Source: a virus
IMG/VR virus record: IMGVR_UViG_3300019871_000002
Span: 1 to 55,529 of that record
Length of the DNA: 55,529 bases
Strand: one strand, 5' to 3'
Made by a program: the position numbers and the translations under genes. Position 1 is the first letter of the stretch; every line of letters starts with the position of its first letter. Below are positions 2,611-54,061 of the stretch, one piece after another. A model generated the notes under the pieces. The model did no database searches. It worked only from the letters and a program-made list of their open reading frames with translations, and had not been told where the DNA came from.

Positions 2611-2647
2611 AAACATACTGCGATCATTTTTCGACTGCAGTATGTTT
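2611..2647. promoter_or_regulatory. Inverted repeat upstream of the HTH gene, candidate operator
   Basis: Perfect 11-bp arms (AAACATACTGC at 2611-2621 and its complement at 2637-2647) are separated by 15 nt. The right arm ends 6 nt before the SD TAGGAGG (2653-2659) of the HTH gene starting at 2668. The position and symmetry suit an operator for autoregulation by the small HTH protein, or an RNA hairpin affecting its translation. The binding protein is inferred, not shown. Confidence 0.5.
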
Positions 2648-2667
2648 GAGCATAGGAGGTACTCGAC

Positions 2668-2877
2668 GTGACATCGAAACAGCTACAATCAGTACTCAAC
2701 AAGCTATGGACAACTCAACACATCTGCAAGAAGTTCGAGGTGTCGGCAATGACGGTGGGGGCATGGCGCGCTCGCGGCTTGCCGCATATCGTGGTAAAGG
2801 GATCGGAGCGACCCTCAATTCGTTTCATCAAGAAGGAAGCCGCATCATGGATCAAACTTCACACGAAGCACGGATGA
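2668..2877 (+). CDS. Small HTH DNA-binding protein (69 aa)
   Basis: It starts at GTG 2668 with a near-perfect SD (AGGAGG, 8 nt upstream). Residues about 15-60 look like an excisionase/AlpA or MerR-type winged helix: a helix, a turn, a recognition helix containing MTVGAWRARG, a two-strand wing with an Arg/Lys patch, then a closing helix ending in a basic tail. Its likely role is transcriptional control, perhaps of its own unit through the inverted repeat just upstream. Its stop overlaps the aminotransferase start as ATGA, so the two are co-translated. It is one of only two genes on the plus strand. Confidence 0.65.
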   Translation: MTSKQLQSVLNKLWTTQHICKKFEVSAMTVGAWRARGLPHIVVKGSERPSIRFIKKEAASWIKLHTKHG

Positions 2878-4229
2878 AATATCAAACGCCAGCGATGCTG
2901 CATCGCAACGTCACGAGCCCGCCGCCCGTCGCGTCTGACTCGGCCGACACCTATTTCGTGACGCCCATCCTCGGAGACGAGGGCCGGCCGATCGCGCACA
3001 ACATGGTGCTAGACATTTCGTCCGGCGCCGGTGTGACATCGTTCGGGCACTCTGCGCCCGGCATCAAGGACGCGATCGTCAAGCAGGTAATGACGATGCC
3101 CTATGCACACTCGGGGCAATGGACGGCACCCATCATCGAGGACGCGGGTCGTGCGATCCTTGTGCGGTCCGGTCCTCGTTTCAGCATGGGCGGTGTGACG
3201 TTCTACTCAGGGGGTTCGGAGGCGGTCGAAGCCGCCTTGAAGTTCGGGGTGCAGATCTTGTCACGCGATCAGAGGCACACTCCGATCCTGTCACGCCGGC
3301 ATTCGTATCACGGAAATACGCTTGGCGCGTTGATGGTGTCTGATCACCCGCGGTGTGGCTTCGTTGACACGGCTTGGTTCCCGGGCGGCTACAATAATCA
3401 GTCGCAGAACGACTTCCGCTTCAATGCCTTCACACCCTCGCTCGTAGGGCAACCAGAAGGCATCCGACTGCATGAGCGCGAGGCGATCTGGTCGCTCGAG
3501 GGGAAGCTCAAGAGGTGCTACGAGGATTTCGACGCGAAGGCGATCGTTTTGATCGAGACGATTGGAGGCACCACGTTGGGCATCGAGCCGCCCACGATCG
3601 CATACCTGACGGGTGTGCGTTCAATGTGCGACGCATACGACGCGATACTGATCCACGACGAAGTGCTGTCTGGTAACTATCGCACGGGGCATCTACTCGC
3701 ATCGTCGCGCTACGGTTTGATGGGTGATTGCAATGTGGCGCCCGACATCGCGGTGCTCGGAAAGGGCATCACCGGCGGGTACTTCCCGATGTCGGCTGTT
3801 GTGTTGTCGTCGCGCTCGAGGGCGATCATGGAGCATTGCGGGAAGATCGCGCACACCTCGACAAATCAGAACCATCCGATCGGGTGTGCGGCTGTGGTCG
3901 CGGCAATGGATGCATACGACAACGCCTTGCCGATGATCAGGGCATTGTCAAAGCATCTCGAAACGGAGATCATGCCACGTCTCGCTTGCGTGAAGCACGT
4001 TCATTCGGTCAGTGGTGTGGGGACTCTTTGGGGGGTCAGGTTCGATCCCGAGAAGGATGGCTTGCACCTTGAGGTGAAGCGGCAGCTGATGGCTGCCGGG
4101 ATCTCATGTTACACGGATGGTAACATGGTCGATGGCAAAGGCAATATGTTGCTCTTTGCGCCTCCGTGCAATATCCACGGAGAAGACCTCGAAAGCTTCT
4201 GCTCTGCAATCGAGTCTTTGGAACTGTAG
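2874..4229 (+). CDS. Class III PLP-dependent aminotransferase
   Basis: A full-length fold-type I, class III transaminase (451 aa from the ATGA-coupled ATG; Met codons further upstream in frame, e.g. 2847, are alternatives). Visible motifs are SGGSEA (residues 112-117, phosphate/PLP pocket), SYHG (144-147), HDEV with the PLP-ring-binding Asp at 262, and GKG with the Schiff-base Lys at 297 followed by Gly-Gly-Tyr-Phe-Pro. All key residues are present, so it should be active. The family includes BioA, GABA, ornithine, diamine and glutamate-semialdehyde enzymes; the amino donor and acceptor cannot be told from sequence. A transaminase is unusual cargo in a phage. It sits alone with an HTH gene, opposite to all other genes. 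Confidence 0.9.
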   Translation: MKYQTPAMLHRNVTSPPPVASDSADTYFVTPILGDEGRPIAHNMVLDISSGAGVTSFGHSAPGIKDAIVKQVMTMPYAHSGQWTAPIIEDAGRAILVRSGPRFSMGGVTFYSGGSEAVEAALKFGVQILSRDQRHTPILSRRHSYHGNTLGALMVSDHPRCGFVDTAWFPGGYNNQSQNDFRFNAFTPSLVGQPEGIRLHEREAIWSLEGKLKRCYEDFDAKAIVLIETIGGTTLGIEPPTIAYLTGVRSMCDAYDAILIHDEVLSGNYRTGHLLASSRYGLMGDCNVAPDIAVLGKGITGGYFPMSAVVLSSRSRAIMEHCGKIAHTSTNQNHPIGCAAVVAAMDAYDNALPMIRALSKHLETEIMPRLACVKHVHSVSGVGTLWGVRFDPEKDGLHLEVKRQLMAAGISCYTDGNMVDGKGNMLLFAPPCNIHGEDLESFCSAIESLEL

Positions 4230-19768: not shown

Positions 19769-21583
19769 TCAGCGACTCCCTAGCAGATACCAATCGATAT
19801 CGGCCATGGTCGTGTCAATGGCGGCTGGCCCCGTGACGGTCATGACGTCTCCGATCGCCCAAGCAACGGCCGAACTAACCACTGTCGCGGTCGCGCTACC
19901 AGCTGCATAAGTGACCGTCACAACCGTGGTGCCATTTTGCTTGATCAGGAACACGGCGCTCGCGGTTGGGGCCGTGCCGCATTCAAACTTAGAGCCGACC
20001 ATATTTGCCGGCCAATTAAAAGCTCTTCCGAGCTTCGTGCGGAACATCAGCTGCGTCGCGGCTACGATCTTGCCGGGGAAGAACATCATCGCATCTGCGA
20101 CATTCAGCGCGGGGGTCCCGGGTGACCCATCAGCTCCCGCTGGGCCCGGCGCACCCTTGATGTTCGAAACAGGCGAGCCCCACGACGTACCCGACCACTG
20201 GTATATGTCGTCATTCGTAGAGTTCAGGTACAGGTCATTGGTGAGCATCGTCGAGATGCCGGAAGATGTTGGCACACCAGCGTGTACGAACCAGACCGAT
20301 CCGCGTACACCATCTGCCCCGGGAGCGCCATCAGTACCATCAGTACCATCCGTTCCGGGAGCACCGTCAGCACCCGCAGGTCCAGCCGCACCCGGCTCAC
20401 CCTGATCACCTTTCACGCCCTGAGGGCCGGGGTCTCCCTGATCGCCTTTCAGCGACCCGAGGTCTTCCCAAGCTCCGGCCACTTTATTGAAAAGATGCTT
20501 TGAGGTGGTTTGGAAGTACTCGTCTCCGTCATTCCCCAGCGACGGATCAGGATCGACTGAACCGACGATGATCGTCGCGCCATTCGCACCATCCGCCCCC
20601 GGTGTGCCCGTGTCACCCTTGTCGCCTTTCGGACCTGCGACTCCGGGATCACCTTGATCTCCTTTGGCTCCGGTTGCTCCTCGTAAGTCTCCTTCGTCGG
20701 CCCACGCTCCTGCGGACTTGAAGAAGAGGTGCTGTCCAACTGAGTCGAAGGCAACATCCCCATTGTTGCCAAGACTGGGGGATGGAGTGCCGGAGGTGAT
20801 ACGGATGGTAGCGCCGTCTTGTCCGACAATGCCATCCGCGCCTTTAATATTTCCTTTAGCGACCCATGTTCCCGCAACCTTCGAGTAGTACTCGAATGTG
20901 TCAGTAGCAATATACAAGTCGCCATTAGCGCCAAGACCATTGCTAGGAACACCAACGCCAGTGAGTATTTTAGAACCCGCCGTTCCCGCTGGACCGGGAG
21001 CGCCGTCTGACCCCGCATCTCCTGTGTCACCTTTGTCTCCCTTCAACCCTTGGACGCCTTGCGACCCAGTATCGCCTTTGTCACCCTTGAGACCAGCCGG
21101 ACCCGGAGCACCTTTGATGTTCGTTTGAAGCGTCCAGTGGCCCGACAACTTCTTGAAAATGTCGTCCGACACCGTGTCGAGGTACAGCTGATTGTCGATA
21201 CCAAGGGTGTCGGCTGGTGCTCCTGCACCCGTGAGGATGTCGGTCTCGCCCCCGATCACGACCGTACCGTCTTTGCCTGCGGGGCCCTGTTCACCCGGCA
21301 CGCCCTGCCCACCGCGGATATCGACGGCGTCTGCGATGTCAGCCACCTCGCCCGTGGCCCCGATGTACGCGCCGGCTGCCGGCTTCGTACCCCCGCCTCC
21401 GGTCCAATCGACAATGCGTTGCACGTCGCGCGCACCATCTGCGACGACAGCGAGCACGGGGGTCCAGCCATCACCCCCTTGCGTGCCGGGGACTCCGATC
21501 GGATCGAGGACGACTACACCGCCAGTGGGCGGCGTCACCGTTATGACAAGAACCTTGGTATCGTTGACTGTGATGTCTACCAT
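19769..21583 (-). CDS. Collagen-like fibre protein (604 aa)
   Basis: After a roughly 90-residue N-terminal domain come several Gly-X-Y collagen-like blocks (with Gly-Pro-Ala, Gly-Asp-Lys and Gly-Ala-Pro triplets), broken by globular repeats of about 45-50 residues (Asn-Gly-Asp-x-Tyr/Phe and Leu-x-Phe-Lys patterns). The globular repeats recur about five times. The C-terminal 100 residues form a separate beta domain similar to the end of the 259-aa protein at 10627. It is expected to be a trimeric fibre for surface binding. The repeated DNA may recombine and change fibre length. Confidence 0.8.
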   Translation of the reverse strand: MVDITVNDTKVLVITVTPPTGGVVVLDPIGVPGTQGGDGWTPVLAVVADGARDVQRIVDWTGGGGTKPAAGAYIGATGEVADIADAVDIRGGQGVPGEQGPAGKDGTVVIGGETDILTGAGAPADTLGIDNQLYLDTVSDDIFKKLSGHWTLQTNIKGAPGPAGLKGDKGDTGSQGVQGLKGDKGDTGDAGSDGAPGPAGTAGSKILTGVGVPSNGLGANGDLYIATDTFEYYSKVAGTWVAKGNIKGADGIVGQDGATIRITSGTPSPSLGNNGDVAFDSVGQHLFFKSAGAWADEGDLRGATGAKGDQGDPGVAGPKGDKGDTGTPGADGANGATIIVGSVDPDPSLGNDGDEYFQTTSKHLFNKVAGAWEDLGSLKGDQGDPGPQGVKGDQGEPGAAGPAGADGAPGTDGTDGTDGAPGADGVRGSVWFVHAGVPTSSGISTMLTNDLYLNSTNDDIYQWSGTSWGSPVSNIKGAPGPAGADGSPGTPALNVADAMMFFPGKIVAATQLMFRTKLGRAFNWPANMVGSKFECGTAPTASAVFLIKQNGTTVVTVTYAAGSATATVVSSAVAWAIGDVMTVTGPAAIDTTMADIDWYLLGSR

Positions 21584-32838: not shown

Positions 32839-34992
32839 TTACGACTCTTCCGTGTCGGTATTGTTGTCGAAGTCCTGCTTGATCTCCTCGAACATCTCAG
32901 GTCCGAGTTCGATCACGCCGGTGTAGGGCTTGACCTGCGAGAGATCGAGGTCGACGGGCTTCTTGTAGCTGATGGTGATATGCGGGGTGTAGTCATCAAA
33001 CGACCACGTCGCGCCTTCGCAGTTATCCATGATCGACATGTGGCGGTACTGCAATGCGGAGTTCGCTAACGCCATCACGGTCGCCTCACCGAACTGTTCC
33101 ATCACACGCGGTCCACCCGGCTTGATCGTCAGACCACCGTCGTCGTTCTCGCCACCCGACCATGAGTCGCCTGCCTTGAGCCAGTCAACGGGCGACTTGC
33201 TGTAAACGATAGTGACGTGCATATCGTCAAGCGATGTCGTGAACCCCTGCGCCTTGAACCACTTCTTGATGTCGTCTTGGTTCGTGACCATGCGACACAC
33301 ATACAGCGTACGCAGTGTCGAGGTTGCGTCGCCCATGCGAATGCGACCGGCCATGTCGCTGGTCTTACTGCCGCCTTTCGCAGGTGCACCCTTGGGCGTC
33401 GACTTGCTGGCCGGTGTCTTCGATGCGGGTGTGGACTTCGCGGTAGCACCCTTGGGTCCTGCCTTCGCGGGCGCCTTACTTGCATTCGGGTCAGCATTCG
33501 GATTGGTAGGAGCGCTGGGTGTGTTCGGGTTATTGGGATCTGCGACGACAGGAAGACCGGTCTCGGGATCGATCGCAGATGCAACGGGCGCCACAGGTGC
33601 CACGTAGTCCTCGCCGTACTCTTCGATCAAGGCTTCGAGGCCGGGGTAGGTGCCGTCATTGATCAGCTGTGCTTCGCGCGCCTTCTGCAGTACCAGCGGA
33701 GTAATGAGGCCTGCGTTGACATCGGCCGTGAACACCGTTGCCTTCTGAACCGCAATCGCAGCCGACTGCGCATCGTCCATCTGCCATAGCGGGTTCCAGT
33801 CGTACCACATGTCTGGCGGACGAGTTCCCAATGCAGACCGAATGATGACTTCATCGAGATTCTCCATCGCTGGTGTGATCGTCAACGACTGATCGGTTGA
33901 GATACGATCGTAGTAGTTGCGCGTATCGGAGTCGCCAGTTGCAGACATACCAGCAGGGGACTGCCCGAGGAAGCGAGTCGCAGGGATGTCGAATGCGCCA
34001 CAAACAATTAGCAGGTACATCTGAATGATCTGCGGCATCCCTTGGAAGTGTGCCTCGAGTCGATCCCATTCCTCCTCCTTGTCAACGATCAGCATCGAGA
34101 ACACGGACTTGACCATGTTCGCGACTGAGAAGCGTTTCTTCAATCGGTCTTCGTATGCCTGCGTCGTGATGTTCTCAGACAGGCCGGGTATCTTGACGAT
34201 GTCGATCTTCGCTTCCGAGATCAACTGCGCGATCGAACCCGATACCATCTGGGTCGACGTGATGGCATCAGTCACCGACTGCAGTACGGAGTCACCCCAA
34301 CCCATGGCGATATTGATGTCGGGGATCGCCTGACCGATGAACCGAACAACGCGCGACGGGTGCAGTTTGATCTGGCCGCCCGTTTGCAGATTGCCATTGA
34401 CTGCGACGCCCGTGGTGTTGTAGGTCGACTTCGTGTAGTAGGAGGGCTGACCGAAGTAGGGCGACATGATGTCCCAGTCGATCGGGCCTGCCCCTAAGTC
34501 CCACTTCGACACGACATGCAGGAACTTCAAGTCACCCTTCTTGACGTTCTCGACAACGAGCGGCTGGTCGCTGGTGCCTTGATCGACACCCATGATCAGA
34601 GCACCGCCGCCGTATAGGCGACCACGCTGTTGCGCAAGCATCACCTTGCGCTGAATGTTCATGTCCTTCTCGAGGGTTTCGATTGCGGTCAACGCATCGC
34701 CGTCTTCCTGCCATGTGCGCCATTCACGAGTCGCATCATAGGCCGGGATATCGATACCCTTGCGGGTGATCCAGTCGGATCGATAGGCCGCGTCCTGTTG
34801 TTCTTTCGACTGCTGATTGAATTGGTAGAACGTGTTCGCGAGCTTGTCCTTGTCGCCGCCCATACCCGTCATGGCGTTGACCAGACCGTCGGGGATCACG
34901 GCACTCAATGCCTTGATCATCGAGTCGTTGCTGAGGCCTCGCATGGTCGAGGGACGAGCCGCGCGCTGAGCACCTTTGGTTGCAGTCTTCAT
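32839..34992 (-). CDS. Portal protein fused to an Acb1-like 2H phosphoesterase (717 aa)
   Basis: ATG 34992 overlaps the terminase stop (ATGA). Residues 1 to about 480 match the DUF1073-type portal. A low-complexity Pro/Ala/Lys/Ser/Thr linker (about 480-545) leads to a C-terminal domain (about 563-710) with two His-x-Thr motifs: HVT at 592-594 and HIT at 671-673. That pair defines 2H phosphoesterases such as Acb1, which destroys cyclic nucleotides of CBASS anti-phage defence. In related phages DUF1073 portals are annotated as Acb1-family. Whether the domain is active when carried on a portal is the open question. Confidence 0.85.
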   Translation of the reverse strand: MKTATKGAQRAARPSTMRGLSNDSMIKALSAVIPDGLVNAMTGMGGDKDKLANTFYQFNQQSKEQQDAAYRSDWITRKGIDIPAYDATREWRTWQEDGDALTAIETLEKDMNIQRKVMLAQQRGRLYGGGALIMGVDQGTSDQPLVVENVKKGDLKFLHVVSKWDLGAGPIDWDIMSPYFGQPSYYTKSTYNTTGVAVNGNLQTGGQIKLHPSRVVRFIGQAIPDINIAMGWGDSVLQSVTDAITSTQMVSGSIAQLISEAKIDIVKIPGLSENITTQAYEDRLKKRFSVANMVKSVFSMLIVDKEEEWDRLEAHFQGMPQIIQMYLLIVCGAFDIPATRFLGQSPAGMSATGDSDTRNYYDRISTDQSLTITPAMENLDEVIIRSALGTRPPDMWYDWNPLWQMDDAQSAAIAVQKATVFTADVNAGLITPLVLQKAREAQLINDGTYPGLEALIEEYGEDYVAPVAPVASAIDPETGLPVVADPNNPNTPSAPTNPNADPNASKAPAKAGPKGATAKSTPASKTPASKSTPKGAPAKGGSKTSDMAGRIRMGDATSTLRTLYVCRMVTNQDDIKKWFKAQGFTTSLDDMHVTIVYSKSPVDWLKAGDSWSGGENDDGGLTIKPGGPRVMEQFGEATVMALANSALQYRHMSIMDNCEGATWSFDDYTPHITISYKKPVDLDLSQVKPYTGVIELGPEMFEEIKQDFDNNTDTEES

Positions 34993-36494
34993 AATGCGTC
35001 TGCCCACTTCATGGTTGTGTCATAGTTATATTGTTTGCCGATGGTCTTCGCGAACGCACCAGCGCCAGCGTCGACCTGATCCTTGTACTTGCCGGTCGGG
35101 AACACTTCGTGTTCGTCAACGTAGTCTTGGTTCCATTTGGCAACGACCAGCGATATGTTGCCACCCTGCCATTGTGCGGCGTACGGTTCGGCCCTGATCT
35201 CTTTCGCGCCCGTCACCTTGTCGATCTTCACGGTGTAGCCTGCGAGGTTCGCGACTGTGCGCTCCGCAGACTCCTTACCACCAGAGCCCGGCTCCTGTTC
35301 GATCCACGTTTCGAACCTGCCCCATTTCGCTTCGTCAGCCTCGGTCGTCGCCTTGATGTTCTGCTCACGCTCGAGGGCGGACCATTGGCCACGGACGACA
35401 TCGATCACGACCCAATCACCCTGATTGAGCAGCGCGATCAACACACCGCACGTGTAGGCACCACCACCACTGGTGCCCGCCTTGTCCCAATAGCGAATGA
35501 GCTTCTTGATCTCATTGTTGTTCGGTGCGTTGCGCACATACTTGATCTTCGCGACCGGGAACATGCCACCGCCCGACACGATCGGCGACTGCTGGTACAA
35601 CGACTCCCACGACGCAACGGTATAAGACTTCTTGCGTTCGTTCAGGAACGCTTTCGATTTGAACTGCGGGAACAGCGGCTCATGCTCTACCTTGCGCGGG
35701 TCCCATGCGTCATTGCGCAATCCCTCGCGTGGTTCGAGCACGGCCATCGCAGGATACTTTAGCACCACACACTCAGGGAAGTGCTCGATGAAGCGACCCG
35801 TCGGATCGTCAATGTGCCAACGGGTCATGGTGATGATCAGACCGGCCGCATCGTCAAAGCGGCTGAAGTAGTCGTCCATCAGCCAGTTCCACGTCTTATC
35901 GCGGATCGCTTTCGACTGCGCCTGTTCACGACCTTTCAATGGGTCATCGATCACGCCGAGGTCAAGGGACTTACCGTTGACCTGACCGTTGACCGTGACG
36001 TTGCGGAACGATCCCTTCTGCCCAACGAACTCTAACAGAGACGAGTTGCGCTGGTAGGCCGTGTCCTTGGATGCGTTGGTGCTGTTCAGTCTCGTGTCTG
36101 GAAACGTGCGGCGGTACTTGTCGTCATCCATGCGACGTTGCAGGAACGAGTTCGTGCTAACACCCAAGTCATCGGAGAACGATGCATAGATCGTTCGCAG
36201 GTGTGGACTCTTACCTGATGCCCACGACACGAAGTCTTGCAAGCCTCGGGTCTTGCCATGTTGCGGCGGCGCCTCGATCACGAGCTTGGGTCGTTCGCCT
36301 GCGATCAGCTTATTGTAGAACAGCTGGAACTGACGCGCGACTTCCTGAGGCCACCACCCCTTGATCATTGCCGCGTCCATGTACTGCCTGAATGCCCACA
36401 GATTCTCTCGGGCTTCGCAGGCATAGTACTCTTCGAGCAGGTCGATGTCGGACTCCGACCACGACTTGAACTCGTTTGGTGAGTGCTTATTCAT
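34989..36494 (-). CDS. terL: Terminase large subunit (501 aa)
   Basis: Walker A-like APPQHGKT at residues 75-82 and Walker B-like LGVIDDPL near 179-186 define the packaging ATPase. The C-terminal nuclease begins near RYWDKAG (about 327-333), with further acidic residues after it. It pumps DNA into the procapsid through the portal and cuts concatemers. Coupled by ATGA to both the GcrA-like gene upstream and the portal gene downstream. Confidence 0.95.
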   Translation of the reverse strand: MNKHSPNEFKSWSESDIDLLEEYYACEARENLWAFRQYMDAAMIKGWWPQEVARQFQLFYNKLIAGERPKLVIEAPPQHGKTRGLQDFVSWASGKSPHLRTIYASFSDDLGVSTNSFLQRRMDDDKYRRTFPDTRLNSTNASKDTAYQRNSSLLEFVGQKGSFRNVTVNGQVNGKSLDLGVIDDPLKGREQAQSKAIRDKTWNWLMDDYFSRFDDAAGLIITMTRWHIDDPTGRFIEHFPECVVLKYPAMAVLEPREGLRNDAWDPRKVEHEPLFPQFKSKAFLNERKKSYTVASWESLYQQSPIVSGGGMFPVAKIKYVRNAPNNNEIKKLIRYWDKAGTSGGGAYTCGVLIALLNQGDWVVIDVVRGQWSALEREQNIKATTEADEAKWGRFETWIEQEPGSGGKESAERTVANLAGYTVKIDKVTGAKEIRAEPYAAQWQGGNISLVVAKWNQDYVDEHEVFPTGKYKDQVDAGAGAFAKTIGKQYNYDTTMKWADAL

Positions 36495-44148: not shown

Positions 44149-44861
44149 AGCTTGATCCTCACTCGTTCTTTTTTGGCGAGCTTGTAGTGTGCTTCGCGCT
44201 CGTCGTGATTAATGCTCTTGATCACGATGCGCTCGCGCTTCTTCTTGATCGACTTTGTCGAGGTCTGGCCCCAACGTTGCCAGTCGGCCGGTGTCGCGAT
44301 CGGCTGCTTGGTGAGTGAGTATTTAGCTGGCGCTTGGAACTGATGCTTCGTGACGCCTTCGAAGTCGTACAGGTCCGCCTTGACGCGATGTAGTCTCGCA
44401 ACCCATGCGGAAGGGTCGAAACGAAACGAGTGTGCCGTCATGCCGCGGGTCAGCATCGCTTCATGCGGCACGATCACGAACGTCTCCCCCCGGTCTTCGC
44501 GAACGATCAGCATGGGCACCCGATCGTGACTCACGGCTTGCTTGATGGCCTCCGCCCAGAAGCGGGCGAGCGGTCCTTGCTGTTTGCAGAGGAACGAAGC
44601 GAAGTTGAGATCGCCGTAGCGCTTGCACTCGACATAGAAATGGTCCGTAAGGACATGCCCGTCGGGGTGCGTGGCACTGATGTCGCCGGCATGTGCTGCG
44701 AGATCAAGTCCACGTTTCTTGCCAACTGTTGCGCGACCGCCTGACATCGCGGACCGCCAGAATAGGTCTTCCCGTTTTCCAAGAGACACCCACAGCGACA
44801 ACTGCTTGCAAACTTCCCGTTCATAGGCCGACCCCTTTTGTTTTCCACCACCCGGTCTCAT
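44145..44861 (-). CDS. PD-(D/E)XK nuclease, Holliday-junction resolvase-like (238 aa)
   Basis: The N-terminal 90 residues contain the pattern of archaeal-type resolvases: GSAYEREVCKQL (Glu 14), GDI (Asp 60) and VECKRYG (Glu 78, Lys 80), the metal and catalytic residues. The C-terminal about 140 residues are basic, and may bind DNA. Located directly after RecA and before end-processing genes, so a recombination or packaging-junction role is likely. Confidence 0.75.
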   Translation of the reverse strand: MRPGGGKQKGSAYEREVCKQLSLWVSLGKREDLFWRSAMSGGRATVGKKRGLDLAAHAGDISATHPDGHVLTDHFYVECKRYGDLNFASFLCKQQGPLARFWAEAIKQAVSHDRVPMLIVREDRGETFVIVPHEAMLTRGMTAHSFRFDPSAWVARLHRVKADLYDFEGVTKHQFQAPAKYSLTKQPIATPADWQRWGQTSTKSIKKKRERIVIKSINHDEREAHYKLAKKERVRIKL

Positions 44862-45859
44862 GCGTACTTGCTCCTGCTGGGTAGCATGGACTCCTCGATC
44901 TCATACCACTCACGTTGAACCGTATCGCGCAGCAGTTTGAGCTGGGCGTCAGCTTCATCGCGTGGCATGTCGAGGAGGTGGCGTAGATAGAACTTGCCCT
45001 GCTCAGGGGTGATGCCTGTCTGCTTCAGGGCCTTGATCTGCGTCAGCCAGTTAATGCAGGCTTGCGCGTCGTCGATACCGTAACCGAAACGAATGTTGAA
45101 CTCGGCTTCACGGAACGGCAGACCGACCTTGTTCTTATCGACCTTCGCTTTCACCTTAACGCCAGTCGCGACCTTGATGCCTCGAGTCGTGCCTGCGAGT
45201 TGGCCCAGATGCGCGAGCATCACGACCTGCGATGCATAGAAGTCGAGAGCGCGGCCTCCGGTGCGCTGGAACTTGCGACCGAACGTCGCGCCGATCTTGT
45301 CACGGATCTGACTGATGATCACGAGGGTGACGTGCTTATCATGCATCTGGCGAATGAGGCGTCGGAACATCTCCGATAGCTTCTTGGCCTTCTCCCCGCC
45401 GTATGATGCGGCATCGATGTCGCGATCGGACTCCGCACGCGATGACAGGGAGTCGAGGGAGTCCACGACTACCAGCTCCTGCGATCGTGCCCCCTTGATA
45501 ATGCGCTCGAGGTCTTCGAACATGTCTTCCACGGTCTCGAGTTGTTCGTCCCCGAAGTCGACGCGATCTAGCGGCATGCCCAAGGTCTTGGCGTACGGCT
45601 TGTCGAATGCAGACTCGGCCTCGCGGTATCGCACCTTGCCCTTGGGTCGCGACAGCACGAAGTTCGCGCACATCTCGATGCAAAGCAGGGTCTTGCCCGT
45701 TGCCTTGTCGCCGACGATATTGATCACTCGATCCTCGGCCCAGCCACCGCCCAGCGCGAGGTCAAGGTTCTTGCAGCCAGACCCGATGAAATGCAAATTG
45801 GTTTTGGGTGCTGCAAAATACGATCCACCACCCCCTATAATCTTAACTCGTTTGGCCAT
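44858..45859 (-). CDS. RecA-like recombinase (333 aa)
   Basis: Walker A GDKATGKT at 50-57, Walker B-like VVVDSLDSL near 130-138, and IISQIRDKIG near 172-181 (loop region), with the RecA core order preserved. It should form filaments on single-stranded DNA and exchange strands with help from the SSB and a mediator. A Glu-rich helix and a short C-terminal extension replace the E. coli C-terminal domain, as in phage UvsX types. Upstream of ATG 45859 are AGGGAAAC and a hairpin. Confidence 0.9.
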   Translation of the reverse strand: MAKRVKIIGGGGSYFAAPKTNLHFIGSGCKNLDLALGGGWAEDRVINIVGDKATGKTLLCIEMCANFVLSRPKGKVRYREAESAFDKPYAKTLGMPLDRVDFGDEQLETVEDMFEDLERIIKGARSQELVVVDSLDSLSSRAESDRDIDAASYGGEKAKKLSEMFRRLIRQMHDKHVTLVIISQIRDKIGATFGRKFQRTGGRALDFYASQVVMLAHLGQLAGTTRGIKVATGVKVKAKVDKNKVGLPFREAEFNIRFGYGIDDAQACINWLTQIKALKQTGITPEQGKFYLRHLLDMPRDEADAQLKLLRDTVQREWYEIEESMLPSRSKYA

Positions 45860-45918: not shown

Positions 45919-47160
45919 TTACTTGCGACGCTTGCGCGGCGGGGGAGCTTCGTCCTCCTCCTCTTCCTCTTCCTCCTCCTCGACTACCTTTTTCTTTTTC
46001 TTCGGGGGCGGAGCTTCGTCCTCTTCCTCTTCCTCCTCTTCCTCGACTACCTTTTTCTTTTTCTTGGGCGGAGGCGCTTCTTCTTCCTCCTCCTCTTCCT
46101 CCTCGACCACACGCTTCTTAACCTTCTTGCGCGGGGACGGTTCCTCCTCTTCCTCCTCCTCTTCCTCCTCCTCCTCCTCTTCTTCCTCGACGGGCGCCCG
46201 CTTCTTTTTCTTGGGCGCGGGTTCGTCCTCTTCTTCTTCTTCCTCCTCCTCCTCTACCGGGCGTTTCTTTTTCTTCGGCTTGATCTCCTCGACTTCCTCG
46301 TCCTCCTCTTCCTCCTCGACCGGCGCACGCTTGCGCTTGCGCGGGGTCTCGTCCTCGTCGTCCTCCTCCTCGACTACCTTTTTCTTTTTCTTCTTCGGCT
46401 TGTCGTCATCGTCGAGGTCTTCGTCCTTCTCCTCAGTGGAGCCGGCCAGTTGCTTTTCGATATGCTCCGCCGTGTCGTAGCGGAGCACGTCGGTCAGCGG
46501 GTTCTCCATGAGGAAGGCGAGGATCTCCTCCTGCTCGTCGGGGTCATCGGCCAGCGACGACGCTTCGCGGTCGATGATATATTGGTACTTGGTGCGAAGC
46601 TGCTTGCCGGTCTTCTTGACTGTGATGTCGTAACCGTCGTCAGGATGATCGAGTAGCAGGATTTTGCCGGTGTGCTTCGTGTGCGTGAGCGAGGAGATTT
46701 CGCGGTCTTGGTTCCACGACATGTCCCACACCTGCGGCATCGGCGGGTCGTTCTCGTCGTCGCGATCGATGACATAGACGAGCGTACGCTTCTGCGCCTG
46801 CATCTTCTTCATGTCCTCGTCTTCGCCGGCGTCCTTGAGTGCCTTCGCTTCTTCACACGCGGGGCAACGCTTGCCCAACATCTTGTTGAGGCAGAGGTAG
46901 TTGGAGTTGTCGGCGCCGATGAAACGATGCATCCAGACATCGAGACCGTAATGTTCGAAGTCGTCCCACGTCGGTGGGCACACGCGCAGTCGGCTTTCGC
47001 CGCTCTCGAGTCGCAAGACGTTCGTGCCCTGCTTGAACGGGCTATCGAACCGCCCACCCGATTGATCGATACGCTTCTTGACTTCTTCCGTGGTTCGCGC
47101 ACGGTATTTGAAGCCAGACGTTTTCGCTTTAACCTTCTTCTTACCGACTCTAGTGACCAT
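45919..47160 (-). CDS. ssDNA-binding protein with alternating charge-block tail (413 aa)
   Basis: Residues 1 to about 242 look like a gp32-type OB-fold protein: a basic N-terminus, C61, then C90-x8-C99-x2-C102 as a zinc site, and aromatic-rich strands. From about 243 to the end the protein has about eight alternating blocks of Lys/Arg and Glu/Asp, joined by Pro or Val-Val, ending in a basic cluster. Normal SSBs have one short acidic tip that recruits partners. This tail is about 170 residues, probably disordered, and could drive condensation or compete with DNA. Located between recombination genes. Confidence 0.8.
   Translation of the reverse strand: MVTRVGKKKVKAKTSGFKYRARTTEEVKKRIDQSGGRFDSPFKQGTNVLRLESGESRLRVCPPTWDDFEHYGLDVWMHRFIGADNSNYLCLNKMLGKRCPACEEAKALKDAGEDEDMKKMQAQKRTLVYVIDRDDENDPPMPQVWDMSWNQDREISSLTHTKHTGKILLLDHPDDGYDITVKKTGKQLRTKYQYIIDREASSLADDPDEQEEILAFLMENPLTDVLRYDTAEHIEKQLAGSTEEKDEDLDDDDKPKKKKKKVVEEEDDEDETPRKRKRAPVEEEEEDEEVEEIKPKKKKRPVEEEEEEEEEDEPAPKKKKRAPVEEEEEEEEEEEEEEEEPSPRKKVKKRVVEEEEEEEEEAPPPKKKKKVVEEEEEEEEDEAPPPKKKKKVVEEEEEEEEEDEAPPPRKRRK
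45922..46434 (-). repeat. Purine-rich repetitive tract encoding the charge blocks
   Basis: The coding strand is almost only purines for stretches of dozens of bases (runs of GAG/GAA and AAG/AAA), with imperfect repeats of about 55-65 nt; the last two repeats before the 3' end are nearly identical. Such homopurine tracts can form triplex (H-DNA) and promote slippage or unequal recombination. This also explains the long open frame on the opposite strand. Confidence 0.8.
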
Positions 47161-47871: not shown

Positions 47872-48798
47872 CTAGTTCAACACGACTTGGCCGATCGACA
47901 TCAGAAGGGGGGCCATACCTTCCGACGCATTGTATTCTCCTGCGAACGCGGACAGGACTTCCAACGCCGCACCCGCAGAGTCGTTGGTCTTTGCGCCCTT
48001 GATCACGGAGCCGAAGTATCGGGTGACGATGATCCGAATGCCTTCCGGGTTCTCGTCCTCCAATTCCTTGATGATGCCCATTGCCATGGTCCAGCTCCCG
48101 GGCTTCATGAGGAAGCGGCACAGACGCATCACGGGGTCCGAATCCGATGCGACGTGCAATAGCCGCTCCGCTTCCTTCGCCGTTGTGCAGCCCCCTGCTG
48201 TTGCGAGGTTCGACAGGGCTTGACGGGCTGAGCCCCCGGCCTCACGCGCCAGTACTTGCATCACGCCCGGGGTGACCTCGAGTCCCTCGCGCTTAGCCAC
48301 ACGCGCAATCACCTTCTCGAGGTCAGCTTCCTTGAGCGGCTTGATCGCAAACTTCGTGCATCGATTGGCCGCCGTCGCGGGCACCTTCGAAAGGTTCGTG
48401 GTGCAAAAGAACCACAGCACAAATTCGTTAGGCTCTTCCAGAGACTTGAGGAGCACATCCCATGCCTGCTTTGACAGACCGTGGCACTCGTCGACGATCA
48501 CAGCGCGCTTCTCACCACCCCCGATCGGTCGGTACTTCATGGTCTGGCAAAGCTGACGCATTTCGTCCTTGCCCGAATATGTCGCGGCGTCGACCTCGAG
48601 TATGTCCCCGGGCGCACAACCCAACATGCTGGCCGCGATGCGCGCCAGTGTCGTCTTGCCGCAGCCCGTCATGCCGTGGAACATGAACTGCTGACTTGAG
48701 TCCTGTTCGATCACGCGCGTCATGGCCTTGATGGTCTCTGGCTGACCCACGACCTGCGCCACAGCCTTGGGTCTATGCTTGGTAATCAGTGATGACAT
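47872..48798 (-). CDS. Clamp loader ATPase, RFC/DnaX-like (308 aa)
   Basis: AAA+ signature: Walker A GMTGCGKTT near 43-51, Walker B AVIVDECHGLS near 98-108, sensor 1 FFCTTNLSKV near 134-143, and a following Asn-Arg-Cys (a Ser-Arg-Cys-like arginine finger). C-terminal helical domain for oligomerisation. It opens the sliding clamp encoded three genes upstream and loads it on DNA. A single subunit gene is seen; T4 uses gp44 with gp62. Confidence 0.9.
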   Translation of the reverse strand: MSSLITKHRPKAVAQVVGQPETIKAMTRVIEQDSSQQFMFHGMTGCGKTTLARIAASMLGCAPGDILEVDAATYSGKDEMRQLCQTMKYRPIGGGEKRAVIVDECHGLSKQAWDVLLKSLEEPNEFVLWFFCTTNLSKVPATAANRCTKFAIKPLKEADLEKVIARVAKREGLEVTPGVMQVLAREAGGSARQALSNLATAGGCTTAKEAERLLHVASDSDPVMRLCRFLMKPGSWTMAMGIIKELEDENPEGIRIIVTRYFGSVIKGAKTNDSAGAALEVLSAFAGEYNASEGMAPLLMSIGQVVLN

Positions 48799-48800
48799 GA

Positions 48801-49169
48801 TCAGTCCTTCTTCGGTTCGTCTGTGATAAAAATCTCCTGCAGTTGCATGGAGACGGTGGGGTGTCCGGGTACGTTCGTGTCGAGGACGAGCGACAACACG
48901 ACATCACGCTTCGGGTGCTTGGTCATTTCGCGAATGAACTCGCGTGCGTTGCGTGAGTTGATCATCCACGTTGACACGAACATCCCCGGAAATGTTTCTT
49001 TGACATACAGGGGGTGTGCTCCGCCCTCGCGGTGCTCGAGCTTGTCGCTGCCATCGAACTGCACGGGTCTGATCCGTGTGAACTTCTGCAATACAGCAGG
49101 ACCATGCTCGTCAGCCGGTCGCGCTCTCGTGTCCCATTTGGTCTTGCCGAACTTCTTGAAGATGCTCAC
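48801..49169 (-). CDS. Hypothetical replication-region protein (122 aa)
   Basis: I chose GTG 49169 because GGAGAG lies upstream and it overlaps the polymerase stop (GTGA); an in-frame ATG is at 49184. The protein is mixed alpha/beta with a helix near 75-85 (AREFIREMTK) and a beta C-terminus. It sits where T4-like phages place a clamp-loader small subunit or translational repressor, but no similarity is clear. Confidence 0.55.
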   Translation of the reverse strand: MSIFKKFGKTKWDTRARPADEHGPAVLQKFTRIRPVQFDGSDKLEHREGGAHPLYVKETFPGMFVSTWMINSRNAREFIREMTKHPKRDVVLSLVLDTNVPGHPTVSMQLQEIFITDEPKKD

Positions 49170-51802
49170 GACGCTGCTCTCCATGTGCCTGATAGTTGAC
49201 GGAACTTGCCTTTGGTGCCGACATTCTCGAACGACCCGACCTCCTCAGTCTCGAACCAGTTATCCCCGATCTTCATTTCGACAACCAGCGGCACTGGATT
49301 GATCCAGTCGAAGTGTGGCTTGACCATCTCCGAGATCACGACCTCTGCCCGCTTGTCGACTTCGTCTTTAGGCCAGAGGAAGGTCAGGTCGTCGTGGATC
49401 TCCATCATCGGCTGGTAGAGGTCCGGGTCGCGCTCATTCAGTTCCGACATCGCATTGAGCACGATCAAGGACTCGTCAGACTGAATAGGTGTGTTGATGA
49501 TTTCGTTCCAGCTGATCGGGGCATGACGACGGAAGCCCGAGAGCCCCGTGACATAGCCGTACTTCATGTAGAACGCATTCTGCTTCAGTTGCCACTTCTT
49601 GATCAGGGGGAAGCGGTCAAACAGTTCTTCCTGCATGGCCTCGACAACCTGCACACTGGGCGCGCGTCGACCTGAGTTGCCGAGGTTGGGTGCGATCGAT
49701 TTGGCGCCTGCGCCGAAGAACGAGGGGAATACGAATTGGTTCTTGACGCCACCCCGCACGTCTTTGAAGACCTTCTTGTCCGTAGCTAAGTTCGGCATCG
49801 CCCAGCCCGGGTCTCGCTTCGCCAAATTGCGCACCCAGTCCTGATGGATGTCATAGCCATCAATGAACGCTTTAACGAGTGTTGGATCTCGTGACTCCAT
49901 CGCGACGTTTCGAGCCTGCACACTGGCGTAGTCGAACGCGACGATCTTCATGTTGCGCTTCGCGACGACCCGACGGATGATCTTGTTGGGACCACGAGTC
50001 GGCCAGTTCTGGATGTTCGGGTCTTCCGATGACGTGCGCCACGTGCGCACCTTCGTCGTGCTGACGATCGGGTGAAGCTTCTTGTCGTCAAACATGTGCG
50101 GCGAGCCCGGCGTTATCGGGGCAATGTACGTCGACAGTACCTTGGATGCCTTGCGGTACTTCAAGAGTATTTTGCCGATCGGGTGCTTCAGCTTCTTGAG
50201 GAACGTTTGGTCGGTCCCGTCGCCACCACCCGCAGACTTCGGCATCTTGATGCCCAGCATGTTGAACATCTTGGGCAGGTCTTTGTTGGAGTCGGGGTTC
50301 ATCTCGACTTTGTAACGGGTCTTGTATTCATCCCAGCAGTCAAGCTTCTTTAGCTCTTGCATTGCTTGCGCGACGACCGCGGTGTAGGTTCTAGCGAAGT
50401 CCTTGCGCTCCGTTTGATCGATCGGCACGCCTTCCATCTGGCACAGCACCAGCGTCGGTATGCGGCGCTTCTGGTGCTGGTACACGTCGATCATGTCCAA
50501 CTCCTCGAGCACCGGCCACTGCGCCAGATGGAGATTGCGATGCCACTTCGCATCGCCCCCGTTGTATCGCAGGACCTTGGCAAGGGGTTCGTCATCGAGT
50601 CGTTTGCGATTGACGTCCGAATACTCCTTGATATTGAAACCGAAGTATTGCTGCGTCAGGCACTCGAGGGCGAGCAGACCCTGAGTTTCGTCAATGATGT
50701 ACGCTTCGGAGATCGTGTCTTCCCACTTGCTCCCTCGCAGTACCTCACGCCCGAAGTGAAATGCAGACCACTCCATTTCGAACGCCAGTTGGTGCACGAT
50801 CTTTTTCGGCTTGGGTGCGAGCAGGAACTCCTTGAACATCGCTTCCAGCTTGTCGAGCTCGCCGTGCGTCCACTTCGACTCCCGATGTTCGAACGGCCAT
50901 GCAAGGGTTCGTGTCTTGTGCGAGAGCGCGGCCGACAGCAGGTAGGCGTCATTGTTGTATGGGCGCAGAGCATTGGTCTCGTAGTCCATCCCAACGGTCA
51001 GGGAGTTAGCACACTCGTCCAAAAATTTTGCAATTTTTTTCAGGTCGGTTTGCCCATTGTCACCCATGCATATCTCCACTCCCTCGAAGATTTGTTCGGG
51101 TGTGATGATGCGAGGTGTGCCCGTGTCGCCCATGACATCGCGGCACGCATTGCGCAGCGCTACTCCGAAGGTGTGTTCTTTGTCGTCGATATGACCTTCC
51201 CACCGCCCTGAGTCTTTAACGGCGTCGATGGGGTCAACGAACGGGTAATACCAACAGGTATGTTCTCCCACTCGCACCGGAAGCCGACGTCCTTGCCAGA
51301 ACGAAGGATGAGTTTCGCGCAGTGCCCACCGCAGGGGCACTGATCCAAATCCGAATATGGCAACTGGTTTAGTCTCCTCAATGTCTTTGATGACTGACGG
51401 CCGGCAGCATTCGATCTCCGTCTCATTCGGTTCGCGGGGCATGTGATCGTACACGTTGCCCGACTTCGACTTGATCTCTGTTCCCGGCCCCGGGTACGTT
51501 CGGATGACATTGCCGAACCGCATACGTGAGAACATTTTCGAGGGTACGTACTTCTTCAGGATCGATCGCTCGATGCCTGACCACGATCGTCCGGCCTTGT
51601 CATCACGTTTCGAGGGGGCAGAGCCCAGCACGTAGACGAGGGCAGAGTCGTCGCCGTGCGGTTTCATTTTACCATGAGTGCAGTCCGCATGATTTAGCGG
51701 GCACGACTTGCACTCAGTGCGATGAAGCAGTTCGACGGAGGGCTTGTTACGGCCCCCCGTTGAACGCTTCGGAGCGTCAGGTTGCAGTCCGAAGAAACCC
51801 AT
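49166..51802 (-). CDS. DNA polymerase I with N-terminal UDG-like domain (878 aa)
   Basis: Residues about 20-230 resemble a family 4 uracil-DNA glycosylase with an iron-sulphur site (C31, C34, C41 and C132/C133) and a Gly-Ser-Ala-Pro-Ser loop near 60-64. Next is a 3'-5' exonuclease (DYE 273-275, an Asp at 417) and a family A polymerase: motif A FDYASVQAR (623-631), motif B RGGVK...FG (683-697) and motif C IHDDL (802-806). SPO1-type phages have the same fusion. ATG 51802 starts 3 nt after the clamp stop, so the longer frame is rejected. It is the replicative polymerase with the adjacent clamp. Confidence 0.95.
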   Translation of the reverse strand: MGFFGLQPDAPKRSTGGRNKPSVELLHRTECKSCPLNHADCTHGKMKPHGDDSALVYVLGSAPSKRDDKAGRSWSGIERSILKKYVPSKMFSRMRFGNVIRTYPGPGTEIKSKSGNVYDHMPREPNETEIECCRPSVIKDIEETKPVAIFGFGSVPLRWALRETHPSFWQGRRLPVRVGEHTCWYYPFVDPIDAVKDSGRWEGHIDDKEHTFGVALRNACRDVMGDTGTPRIITPEQIFEGVEICMGDNGQTDLKKIAKFLDECANSLTVGMDYETNALRPYNNDAYLLSAALSHKTRTLAWPFEHRESKWTHGELDKLEAMFKEFLLAPKPKKIVHQLAFEMEWSAFHFGREVLRGSKWEDTISEAYIIDETQGLLALECLTQQYFGFNIKEYSDVNRKRLDDEPLAKVLRYNGGDAKWHRNLHLAQWPVLEELDMIDVYQHQKRRIPTLVLCQMEGVPIDQTERKDFARTYTAVVAQAMQELKKLDCWDEYKTRYKVEMNPDSNKDLPKMFNMLGIKMPKSAGGGDGTDQTFLKKLKHPIGKILLKYRKASKVLSTYIAPITPGSPHMFDDKKLHPIVSTTKVRTWRTSSEDPNIQNWPTRGPNKIIRRVVAKRNMKIVAFDYASVQARNVAMESRDPTLVKAFIDGYDIHQDWVRNLAKRDPGWAMPNLATDKKVFKDVRGGVKNQFVFPSFFGAGAKSIAPNLGNSGRRAPSVQVVEAMQEELFDRFPLIKKWQLKQNAFYMKYGYVTGLSGFRRHAPISWNEIINTPIQSDESLIVLNAMSELNERDPDLYQPMMEIHDDLTFLWPKDEVDKRAEVVISEMVKPHFDWINPVPLVVEMKIGDNWFETEEVGSFENVGTKGKFRQLSGTWRAAS

Positions 51803-51804
51803 GA

Positions 51805-52878
51805 TCAGTTGCCCGTCGCTGACACCAGATAGACTAAGTCGTCTTTTTCTTTCGCATCGTTGATCATGGCGACGCAGTCCTTGCTGATCACGAAGCGATT
51901 GAAGTCGTCGAGTCCGTCCATGATACGACGCGGGTCGATGTATGCCGTGACATCGGGCTGCGCGTCGCCGACCTGCGTCATGTCGAACGCCTCCCCGCGC
52001 TCCGACACGCTTGTCATTGAGACCCTCTTCTCCTTGATCACGACCTTTGTCTTGGTCTTGTCGATCGCGCCTTCGGTGATGATGCACGCGCGTTCAAGCA
52101 TCGGTCGCAGCTTCTCCGGGATCGGCACGGCCTTCTGCCTGTGACTCGAGGTCATCAGCTCCTTGACCTGCGATACGAAGTCAAGGGGATTGTCGAGCTG
52201 TTCGAGACGGCCGAACAACGTCACACCCTCGTGACGCAGCACCGCGTGGTTGTCCGTGATCTCAAGGTTGAGTTCGCTCGCGCCCTTCGCAATGCGCACC
52301 AGCTGTTTGCAGAAGTCGGTCTTGAGGATCACACGTTCGAACTCGAGGGAGCCCTGATACTTGACGGACCCGTGACTGATCGTCGCGCGATCGGTGCTGA
52401 ACATCAGCAGTCGCTTCGCCTTTTCGTCATTGATCAGCGTGACCCCCAACAGGTCGGGGTTCGACGTGTCATTGCCGATCGATCGCAGGCACATCTCCAT
52501 CGACTGCATGAAGCGCGCGGCGTCGACGGGCATCGGTTCAGCGTTAGTGGCCTTGGGCATCTTGAAGATGAAGTCCGCAGGGGCCATCATCGCGAACTTG
52601 AACTTTGACGACGCGGCTTTGATATTCAGCATCAGGTCCGACGGTGTGAACTCGATGTCCTCAGCCTTGCTGGTGTTGAGGATCGAGAGCAGGGTGATGG
52701 GCACCGCCCCGCTGAACTCCGTTTCACACCCGACCGATATACCAATGTGGTCGTTGTATGCGAGGAGTCTCTTGCCCGTGAACCAGAAGTGATTGAGCAC
52801 GGGTATCAGTGTGTTCTTCGCGACCGCAGGCTCGACCTCCTGCAGCAGATCAATTATCTTGGCTCGCTTCATCAACAT
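51805..52878 (-). CDS. DNA polymerase sliding clamp, DnaN-like (357 aa)
   Basis: Three repeats of alternating helices and strands, about 120 residues each, with bacterial beta-clamp features: N-terminal helix then VLNHFWF, a central DRATISHGSV segment, and a C-terminal strand reading VAMINDAKEKDDLVYLVSA. It encircles DNA as a dimer and tethers the polymerase encoded next. DnaN-type clamps are less usual in phages than gp45-type. Alternative ATG at 52872. Confidence 0.85.
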   Translation of the reverse strand: MLMKRAKIIDLLQEVEPAVAKNTLIPVLNHFWFTGKRLLAYNDHIGISVGCETEFSGAVPITLLSILNTSKAEDIEFTPSDLMLNIKAASSKFKFAMMAPADFIFKMPKATNAEPMPVDAARFMQSMEMCLRSIGNDTSNPDLLGVTLINDEKAKRLLMFSTDRATISHGSVKYQGSLEFERVILKTDFCKQLVRIAKGASELNLEITDNHAVLRHEGVTLFGRLEQLDNPLDFVSQVKELMTSSHRQKAVPIPEKLRPMLERACIITEGAIDKTKTKVVIKEKRVSMTSVSERGEAFDMTQVGDAQPDVTAYIDPRRIMDGLDDFNRFVISKDCVAMINDAKEKDDLVYLVSATGN

Positions 52879-54061
52879 TGTTTCGTTCCATTCTTGCTAA
52901 GAGTTGCATCCGTCGGTTGGATTGATAGTGCTCGGACTTCCAGTTCTTCGCCTCCACACGTTTCGGCTTGTAGTTGGGATTGTCAGTGCCGTGGATGATG
53001 TAAGACTTCATCATCTTGTCGAGCTTGTCGCGGTTCTTTTCGAACAGCGGCAGCAAATCGAAATAGGACACGAGTCGGTGCACGCCCCCGGCCTCGGTCA
53101 GGATCTTGGAGAAGCCGCGATTGGCAACCATCGTCGCGAACATCACGGCCATGTGGCTGTGCATTGGGGGAGCTGCCACCTTGTCGACCCATGCTTTGCC
53201 GACTTCAACAGGAGTTCGATGCGTGAAAGCTTTGCGCCCCTGCGACTCGCAAAACTCGTTGAAGTATTTCACGTTCGCAATGCGGCGCGCGCCCGAGACG
53301 TTCGTGACCTGCTCGAGGGTTAGACCCCATCGTTCGATATTGCCCAAGACCCACTCGCGTTCAGTCGGGCCAAGCATGTCGTACTGACGACGCGCAGACG
53401 ACCACGATATCTGCTCGCGCCCCGACATGATCACGCGCATTGGCAACGTAGCATAGTTCGCAGTCTTGTTCGATCGCATGGCAGGCACATAGATCATGCC
53501 GAAGCCCGCAGCAAGCGACCACGTCGTGGAGTCGCAAGTGTACCACGGGTAGCGCAGCATGAACTGCACCTTCGTGATCCCGAAGCCGTGGGTCTTGACG
53601 AGCGGGTGCCCTTTGCTGTCTGACAAGATCGAAAACATCTGGTCGAGCCACGTCTCATGATAGTCCGATAGATCGCCCGGCATGTCCTTGGCCGTCGCAA
53701 GTCCGATGTAGGAGTCACCGTCCTTGAGGTAGCGCTCAAGGAATTTGAACGACTCCCCTTGGTGAAAGATCGGGATCGGCTTGAGGCCGGCGTCCTTCAT
53801 AACCTGATGATTGCGATAGCCGACCTCCGCCGACTTCGTGACATCGCTTGGTACTCGTGCGACCTGAGGGCGCCCGGGGATTTGGTCCATCGTCGCGTAG
53901 CAGAACAGGTCTTGCTCGTAGCGCTTGAGGAACGCGATGTAGGTCTTTAGGTCGAGCGTAAGGTTGCGAGACCACGCCCCGAACACTCCTGAGTCCATGA
54001 ACAGTTTGACCCGGGGCTTGCCCGGGTCTTGAACTGTTGTGATGCGCTCGCGCTTAGCCAA
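52850..54061 (-). CDS. DpdA-like DNA-guanine transglycosylase (403 aa)
   Basis: TGT-like TIM barrel with DpdA pattern: FMDSGVFGAW with Asp 23 (base recognition/general base), FHQGE near 99-103, HGFGIT at 158-163 and CDSTTW with the likely nucleophile Asp 177. DpdA enzymes swap guanine in DNA for a 7-deazaguanine precursor such as preQ0. Neighbouring FolE and QueC make that precursor. The modified base protects phage DNA from host restriction enzymes. Overlaps the clamp start by 29 nt. Confidence 0.8.
   Translation of the reverse strand: MAKRERITTVQDPGKPRVKLFMDSGVFGAWSRNLTLDLKTYIAFLKRYEQDLFCYATMDQIPGRPQVARVPSDVTKSAEVGYRNHQVMKDAGLKPIPIFHQGESFKFLERYLKDGDSYIGLATAKDMPGDLSDYHETWLDQMFSILSDSKGHPLVKTHGFGITKVQFMLRYPWYTCDSTTWSLAAGFGMIYVPAMRSNKTANYATLPMRVIMSGREQISWSSARRQYDMLGPTEREWVLGNIERWGLTLEQVTNVSGARRIANVKYFNEFCESQGRKAFTHRTPVEVGKAWVDKVAAPPMHSHMAVMFATMVANRGFSKILTEAGGVHRLVSYFDLLPLFEKNRDKLDKMMKSYIIHGTDNPNYKPKRVEAKNWKSEHYQSNRRMQLLARMERNNVDEASQDN

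Follow-up and report, generated by a model that had tools for sequence, protein, structure and literature searches.

The C-terminal tails of single-stranded-DNA-binding proteins (SSBs) are organising hubs of the replication machinery, and condensation has been demonstrated for both T4 gp32 and Escherichia coli SSB. The E. coli SSB tail is not charge-blocky and ends in DDDIPF. The acidic C-domain of T4 gp32, about 48 aa long, folds back and blocks the protein's own ssDNA site (PMC5892887), and it mediates heterotypic contacts with other T4 proteins (PMC12893549); gp32 and UvsX each form condensates under crowding (PMC11951158). Condensation of E. coli SSB is tunable through its disordered linker (PMC12143593, PMC11947617) and needs Gly-rich regions, aromatic and positive residues, and OB-tip contact. 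In unrelated eukaryotic proteins, alternating charge blocks within disordered regions are associated with condensates or with DNA-mimic autoinhibition: such blocks drive the phase separation of Ki-67 (PMC9106583), and those at the C-terminus of CTCF include an acidic region proposed as a DNA-mimic brake that weakens DNA binding (PMC11667065). The charge patterns of Ki-67 and NPM1 are switched by phosphorylation.

The protein that we compare with these systems is encoded in the window, by which we mean the whole 55.5-kb stretch (55,529 nucleotides) of IMG/VR virus record IMGVR_UViG_3300019871_000002. Its gene (45919..47160, minus strand) is an intact reading frame of 413 codons that matches the PHROG profiles phrog_34306 (2e-38) and phrog_1192 (SSB; 9e-10), the latter of which is likewise matched by T4 gp32. 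A Pfam search with the full-length protein matched no family, the signal probably being swamped by the tail; when searched by itself, the core matched the gp32 family (PF08804) at 8.7e-6 with 26.3 bits, 0.5 short of the curated cut-off of 26.8, and 40 of 42 family cores from which the tail had been removed matched PF08804, the best at 3.3e-11. Residues 1–242 (46435..47160, minus strand) comprise a basic N-terminus and a core that AlphaFold2, using an alignment of loci from viral and genome contigs, models with a mean pLDDT of 86.9 as an OB fold of gp32 topology. The top six Foldseek matches of this model in the PDB were all T4 or RB69 gp32 (E 1.6e-7 to 4.7e-5), and these were the only matches below 0.001, the next lying at 0.017. 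Comparison of the core with a T4/Nickie gp32 profile by hhalign gave a probability of 98.3% (E 2.4e-14). The original prediction of an SSB-like protein is thereby borne out and can be narrowed to the gp32 family. No phage matched the locus in a Megablast search, and the sole result of a PDB sequence search, a glucocorticoid-receptor zinc match, was dismissed as chance.

Several finer features are shared with T4 gp32 despite a core identity of 12–14%. A putative zinc site, H78-C90-C99-C102 (46855..46929, minus strand), is recognisable from conservation in alignment A1, where each residue is kept in at least 90% of rows and the His is invariant, and from a profile alignment in which H78, C99 and C102 correspond to T4 gp32 H64, C87 and C90, with C90 falling near C77. 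The N-terminus is basic (KKKVKAK), with QKRTL near the position of the T4 KRKTS; the strict LAST motif, (K/R)3(S/T)2, which is described for T4 gp32 but is not known as a defining feature of the Pfam family, is present in only 2 of 46 cores. As in T4, the gene sits beside replication and recombination genes that include a UvsX-like partner. It is flanked by genes for a clamp loader (47872..48798; phrog_5846, 1e-60) and a RecA/UvsX-like recombinase (44858..45859; PF00154, 3e-39; UvsX-like phrog_97, 2e-52), and lies downstream of those for a family A DNA polymerase (49166..52087; PF00476, 4e-43) and a sliding-clamp-like processivity factor (51805..52878; phrog_947, 3e-29), all on the minus strand, and the same gene order surrounds the homologue in Edwardsiella phage vB_EpM_ZHS. 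The protein is the phage's own gp32-family SSB, encoded inside a polymerase, clamp, clamp-loader and recombinase cluster.

The similarity to T4 gp32 extends to having a disordered, charged C-terminal region, although its organisation differs. The 171-aa tail of the window protein, residues 243–413 (45922..46434, minus strand), alternates eight acidic blocks (residues 246–253, 264–271, 282–292, 303–313, 325–340, 353–361, 373–382 and 394–404) with eight basic blocks (256–261, 274–278, 296–300, 317–321, 344–350, 366–370, 387–391 and 409–413), each 5–16 aa long, with a period of about 21 aa and a charge autocorrelation of 0.64. Its local charge variance lies 15.4 SD above that of composition-preserving shuffles, and it contains 16 alternating blocks versus 4.9 in the shuffles. 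Acidic residues make up a fraction of 0.48 and basic residues 0.26, for a net charge of −0.22 per residue. The protein ends in PPPRKRRK, and the original prediction correctly located a tail of alternating charge blocks with a basic end; because the acidic C-terminal tip is absent, we call the protein a gp32 variant. The bacterial-SSB DDDIPF tip is also absent from it, as is any IPF-type motif. In the full-length AlphaFold model, residues 241–413 contain neither helix nor strand and 10-residue mean pLDDT is 44–54, so that the tail is predicted to be disordered. Among 48 other ORFs checked in the window none is comparable, the SSB having 14 blocks within its final 150 residues and the next highest ORF 4.

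To place this tail in a family, we assembled 44 distinct proteins with complete C-termini, consisting of the window protein and 43 non-identical homologues from other viruses (core identity 31–65%) collected from viral contigs, from phages in GenBank and from a single deltaproteobacterial MAG. A charged C-terminal extension of 55–236 aa is present in every one of them. The frame is intact, and a frameshift or an artefact of assembly can be ruled out, since homologues in independent contigs and in GenBank phages carry the same kind of tail built from different DNA. Neither of the outcomes named beforehand as refuting the prediction, a broken frame or homologues without the tail, was observed. 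At least six alternating blocks occur in the last 150 residues of 32 of the 44 proteins, versus none of 58 T4-type and none of 12 Nickievirus-type gp32 proteins, and in 30 of the 44 tails charge segregation exceeds that of the shuffles by more than 3 SD; in about one third of the family, mostly those with RD/RG-type tails, the charges are well mixed. Nearly all tails are net acidic. The C-terminal end is basic in 32 of 44 family members and in none of the 70 controls, most of which terminate in acidic residues as expected of phage SSBs (49/58 T4-type and 12/12 Nickie-type); in this lineage a basic end has thus for the most part taken the place of the acidic SSB tip. The claim that this layout is unknown among SSBs stands as far as its rarity is concerned (0/70 controls), but the window protein is no single oddity, since a whole viral lineage shares the trait. 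Proline is found at 91 of 166 junctions leading from acid to base but at 39 of 158 leading from base to acid (Fisher p 4e-8, junctions within one protein not being independent).

The described phages nearest to this family differ from the window protein in instructive ways. Homologues in Mardecavirus (Vibrio) and in vB_EpM_ZHS (phrog_34306) belong to the same family, occupy the syntenic position and have long charged tails, yet these are of the RD/RG type, less blocky, and harbour a mini-domain of about 45 aa; the Mardecavirus proteins in addition lack the zinc Cys. The SSBs of Nickievirus and Stenotrophomonas phages (phrog_1192) have a distant gp32-like core, but end in a short acidic tip (e.g. 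DDLDDLDELL) and have no charge blocks. In the open literature that we searched, outside of which most subscription journals lie, charge-block tails on phage SSBs were unreported. These proteins represent a real, conserved variant of the gp32-type SSB that is undescribed in that literature, with good support for both its identity and its conservation.

By analogy with T4 gp32, UvsX, E. coli SSB, Ki-67 and CTCF, we consider the best reading of this tail to be a brake combined with multivalent self-association. As a whole, the explanation that a gp32-type SSB uses a polyampholyte tail for autoinhibition and self-association through multivalent electrostatics is one that we hold tentatively, placing it slightly short of even. 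The acidic blocks would fold back onto the ssDNA trough and basic surfaces, as the C-domain of T4 does, and slow DNA binding until displaced by long ssDNA. Once freed, acidic and basic blocks might pair with those of adjacent SSB molecules, with nucleic acid, and with proteins of replication and recombination, while prolines at the acid-to-base junctions would keep the blocks as separate, flexible units. On replicating phage DNA this would give a dense and exchangeable network of SSBs, either a condensate or a layer resembling one. Charge statistics and the AlphaFold2 model indicate in the window protein a predicted-disordered region with alternating charge blocks, as in Ki-67- and NPM1-like scaffolds. 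Condensate formation or self-regulation by the tail is plausible from the precedents of T4 gp32 and E. coli SSB. Against condensation, the blocks are only 5–16 aa long, compared with the 30–40 aa reported for Ki-67-type proteins, and the net negative charge of the tail and the well-mixed third of the family count against the explanation as a whole. Moreover, in random-phase-approximation (RPA) polyampholyte theory the critical temperature of the window tail is about 1–2 SD above that of its shuffles and most relatives' tails are indistinguishable from their own, and block order barely matters in any of the variants used (salt-free SCD/RPA and screened RPA). Homotypic phase separation is therefore not expected to gain much from block order as such, and because simple theory does not show block order to contribute much beyond composition, the condensate reading remains a proposal.

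A serious rival, although we think it unlikely to be the full account, is that the tail serves autoinhibition and partner docking alone, the acidic blocks being a multiplied acidic tip that mimics DNA and docks the polymerase, recombinase or helicase, while the basic blocks merely neutralise and space them and no condensate forms. The autoinhibition and heterotypic contacts of the T4 C-domain, as well as the proposed acidic DNA-mimic region of CTCF, are precedents for such a role, and it accords with the net acidity of nearly all the tails and with the occurrence of SSB-Ct-like motifs inside 5 of the 44, where 0.17 would be expected. What it explains less well is that basic blocks persist as much as acidic ones and that 32 of 44 proteins end in basic residues, which is more than neutral spacing needs; nor does the window protein itself contain an IPF-type motif.

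The tail could instead be a largely neutral expansion: slippage or unequal recombination at the end of the gene would have lengthened a purine-rich tandem repeat, which was then tolerated as harmless. A 63–66-bp tandem unit (PPPKKKKKVVEEEEEEEEDEA) does make up the last tail repeats (45937..46170, minus strand; Tandem Repeats Finder, 3.7 copies, 79% matches), the window tail contains a 48-base purine run, and tail length varies widely among homologues. However, the longest purine run is only 8–16 bases in most relatives checked, which make the same layout from GAC/CGC codons, so that the layout does not follow from the purine tract. Glu codons are mixed in the tail (47:24) much as in the rest of the window (215:153), and the array is consequently not a fresh slippage product. 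Among the 31 non-GAG codons in the acidic blocks of the window protein, 23 are synonymous, 7 encode Asp and 1 is other, whereas about two thirds would be non-acidic without selection, a comparison biased against seeing such codons in that the block limits were chosen by charge. Synonymous codons have thus been scrambled while charge was kept. The residues themselves turn over: the window tail is of the E/K type, and its near relatives use D/K, D/R or D/RGR, the nearest being D/R (L019, L020), D/E with K/R (L021, L005) and D/E with R (L025). When mapped onto a maximum-likelihood tree built from the cores, the type of acidic residue switches at least 18 times and that of the basic residue 15 times; GC content does not explain the choice between E/K and D/R (Spearman p 0.15 and 0.75). 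Judged from these sequences, what is conserved is charge identity and its alternation, not particular residues. Together with the presence of a charged tail in all 44 proteins and its absence from the other window ORFs checked, these observations largely refute neutral expansion, which we consider improbable.

Tethering to RNA or double-stranded DNA is quite improbable as the principal role. The functional parts would then be the K/R blocks (RGR in relatives), with the acidic blocks tuning affinity, perhaps in translational autoregulation or packaging. The basic parts are indeed RG/RGR-rich in some relatives (L020, L014, L026), and gp32 is known to repress its own mRNA (PMC535899), but acidic residues outnumber basic ones in the window tail and the sequence gives no sign of a specific RNA target. 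A charged single alpha-helix of the ER/K type, acting as a rigid spacer, would suit the richness in E and K but was rejected as very improbable, given the proline junctions in most repeats, homopolymeric runs of E8–16 in place of E4K4 spacing, and a modelled tail devoid of helix.

Returning to the brake with multivalent self-association, a bolder form would be that in this phage lineage the acidic SSB tip gave way to a charge-block program under selection, which scaffolds a replication condensate and arose independently of the eukaryotic nuclear cases. We regard this as unlikely, though worth stating, because if true it would provide a case from bacterial viruses in which charge patterning, and not sequence, encodes function. 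The turnover of residues from E/K to D/R under a kept charge pattern amounts to a natural experiment on whether patterning alone carries function, and the family offers dozens of divergent natural tails for swapping onto one core. In addition, proteins of cultured Vibrio and Edwardsiella phages that are mostly annotated as hypothetical gain a gp32-like SSB annotation.

The tails and their relatives contain further elements of interest. Motifs of the form D/E-D/E-[ILV]-P-[FYW] (DEIPF or DDIPF), mostly internal in the five family tails that have them (L047, L049, L057, L058, L062), also occur in 9 of 58 T4-type gp32 proteins (L100, L102–L104 and others) versus about 0.2 expected from shuffles, and in gp32-type tails they perhaps dock host SSB partners. 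The mini-domain (PTWESVHEMTKSELEDLI...LADWICEEMKL) is conserved inside the charged tail of one sub-clade (L014, 5782–7152; L007, L029, L035, L038, L041, L043, L045, L054 and L015) and matched no Pfam family. One T4-type gp32 (L128, 1501–2382 and downstream) has a charged linker of its own (EDDDDEAAGGTRDRK...KPAKKEEAEE) while retaining the acidic tip, and may represent a separate beginning of this kind of layout.

Elsewhere in the window, the family A polymerase carries an N-terminal uracil-DNA-glycosylase-like domain (PF03167, residues 144–260), and a queuine tRNA-ribosyltransferase-like protein (52850–54061, minus strand; phrog_887, 4e-36) may point to DpdA-type deazaguanine modification of DNA. 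A class-III aminotransferase (2646–4229) is encoded on the opposite, plus strand and a collagen-repeat protein (19769–21583) on the minus strand. The portal protein (32839–35007, minus strand; PF06381) has a C-terminal anti-CBASS Acb1 domain (PF23474, E 1e-32, residues 566–714), an apparent fusion of a structural protein to a counter-defence enzyme.
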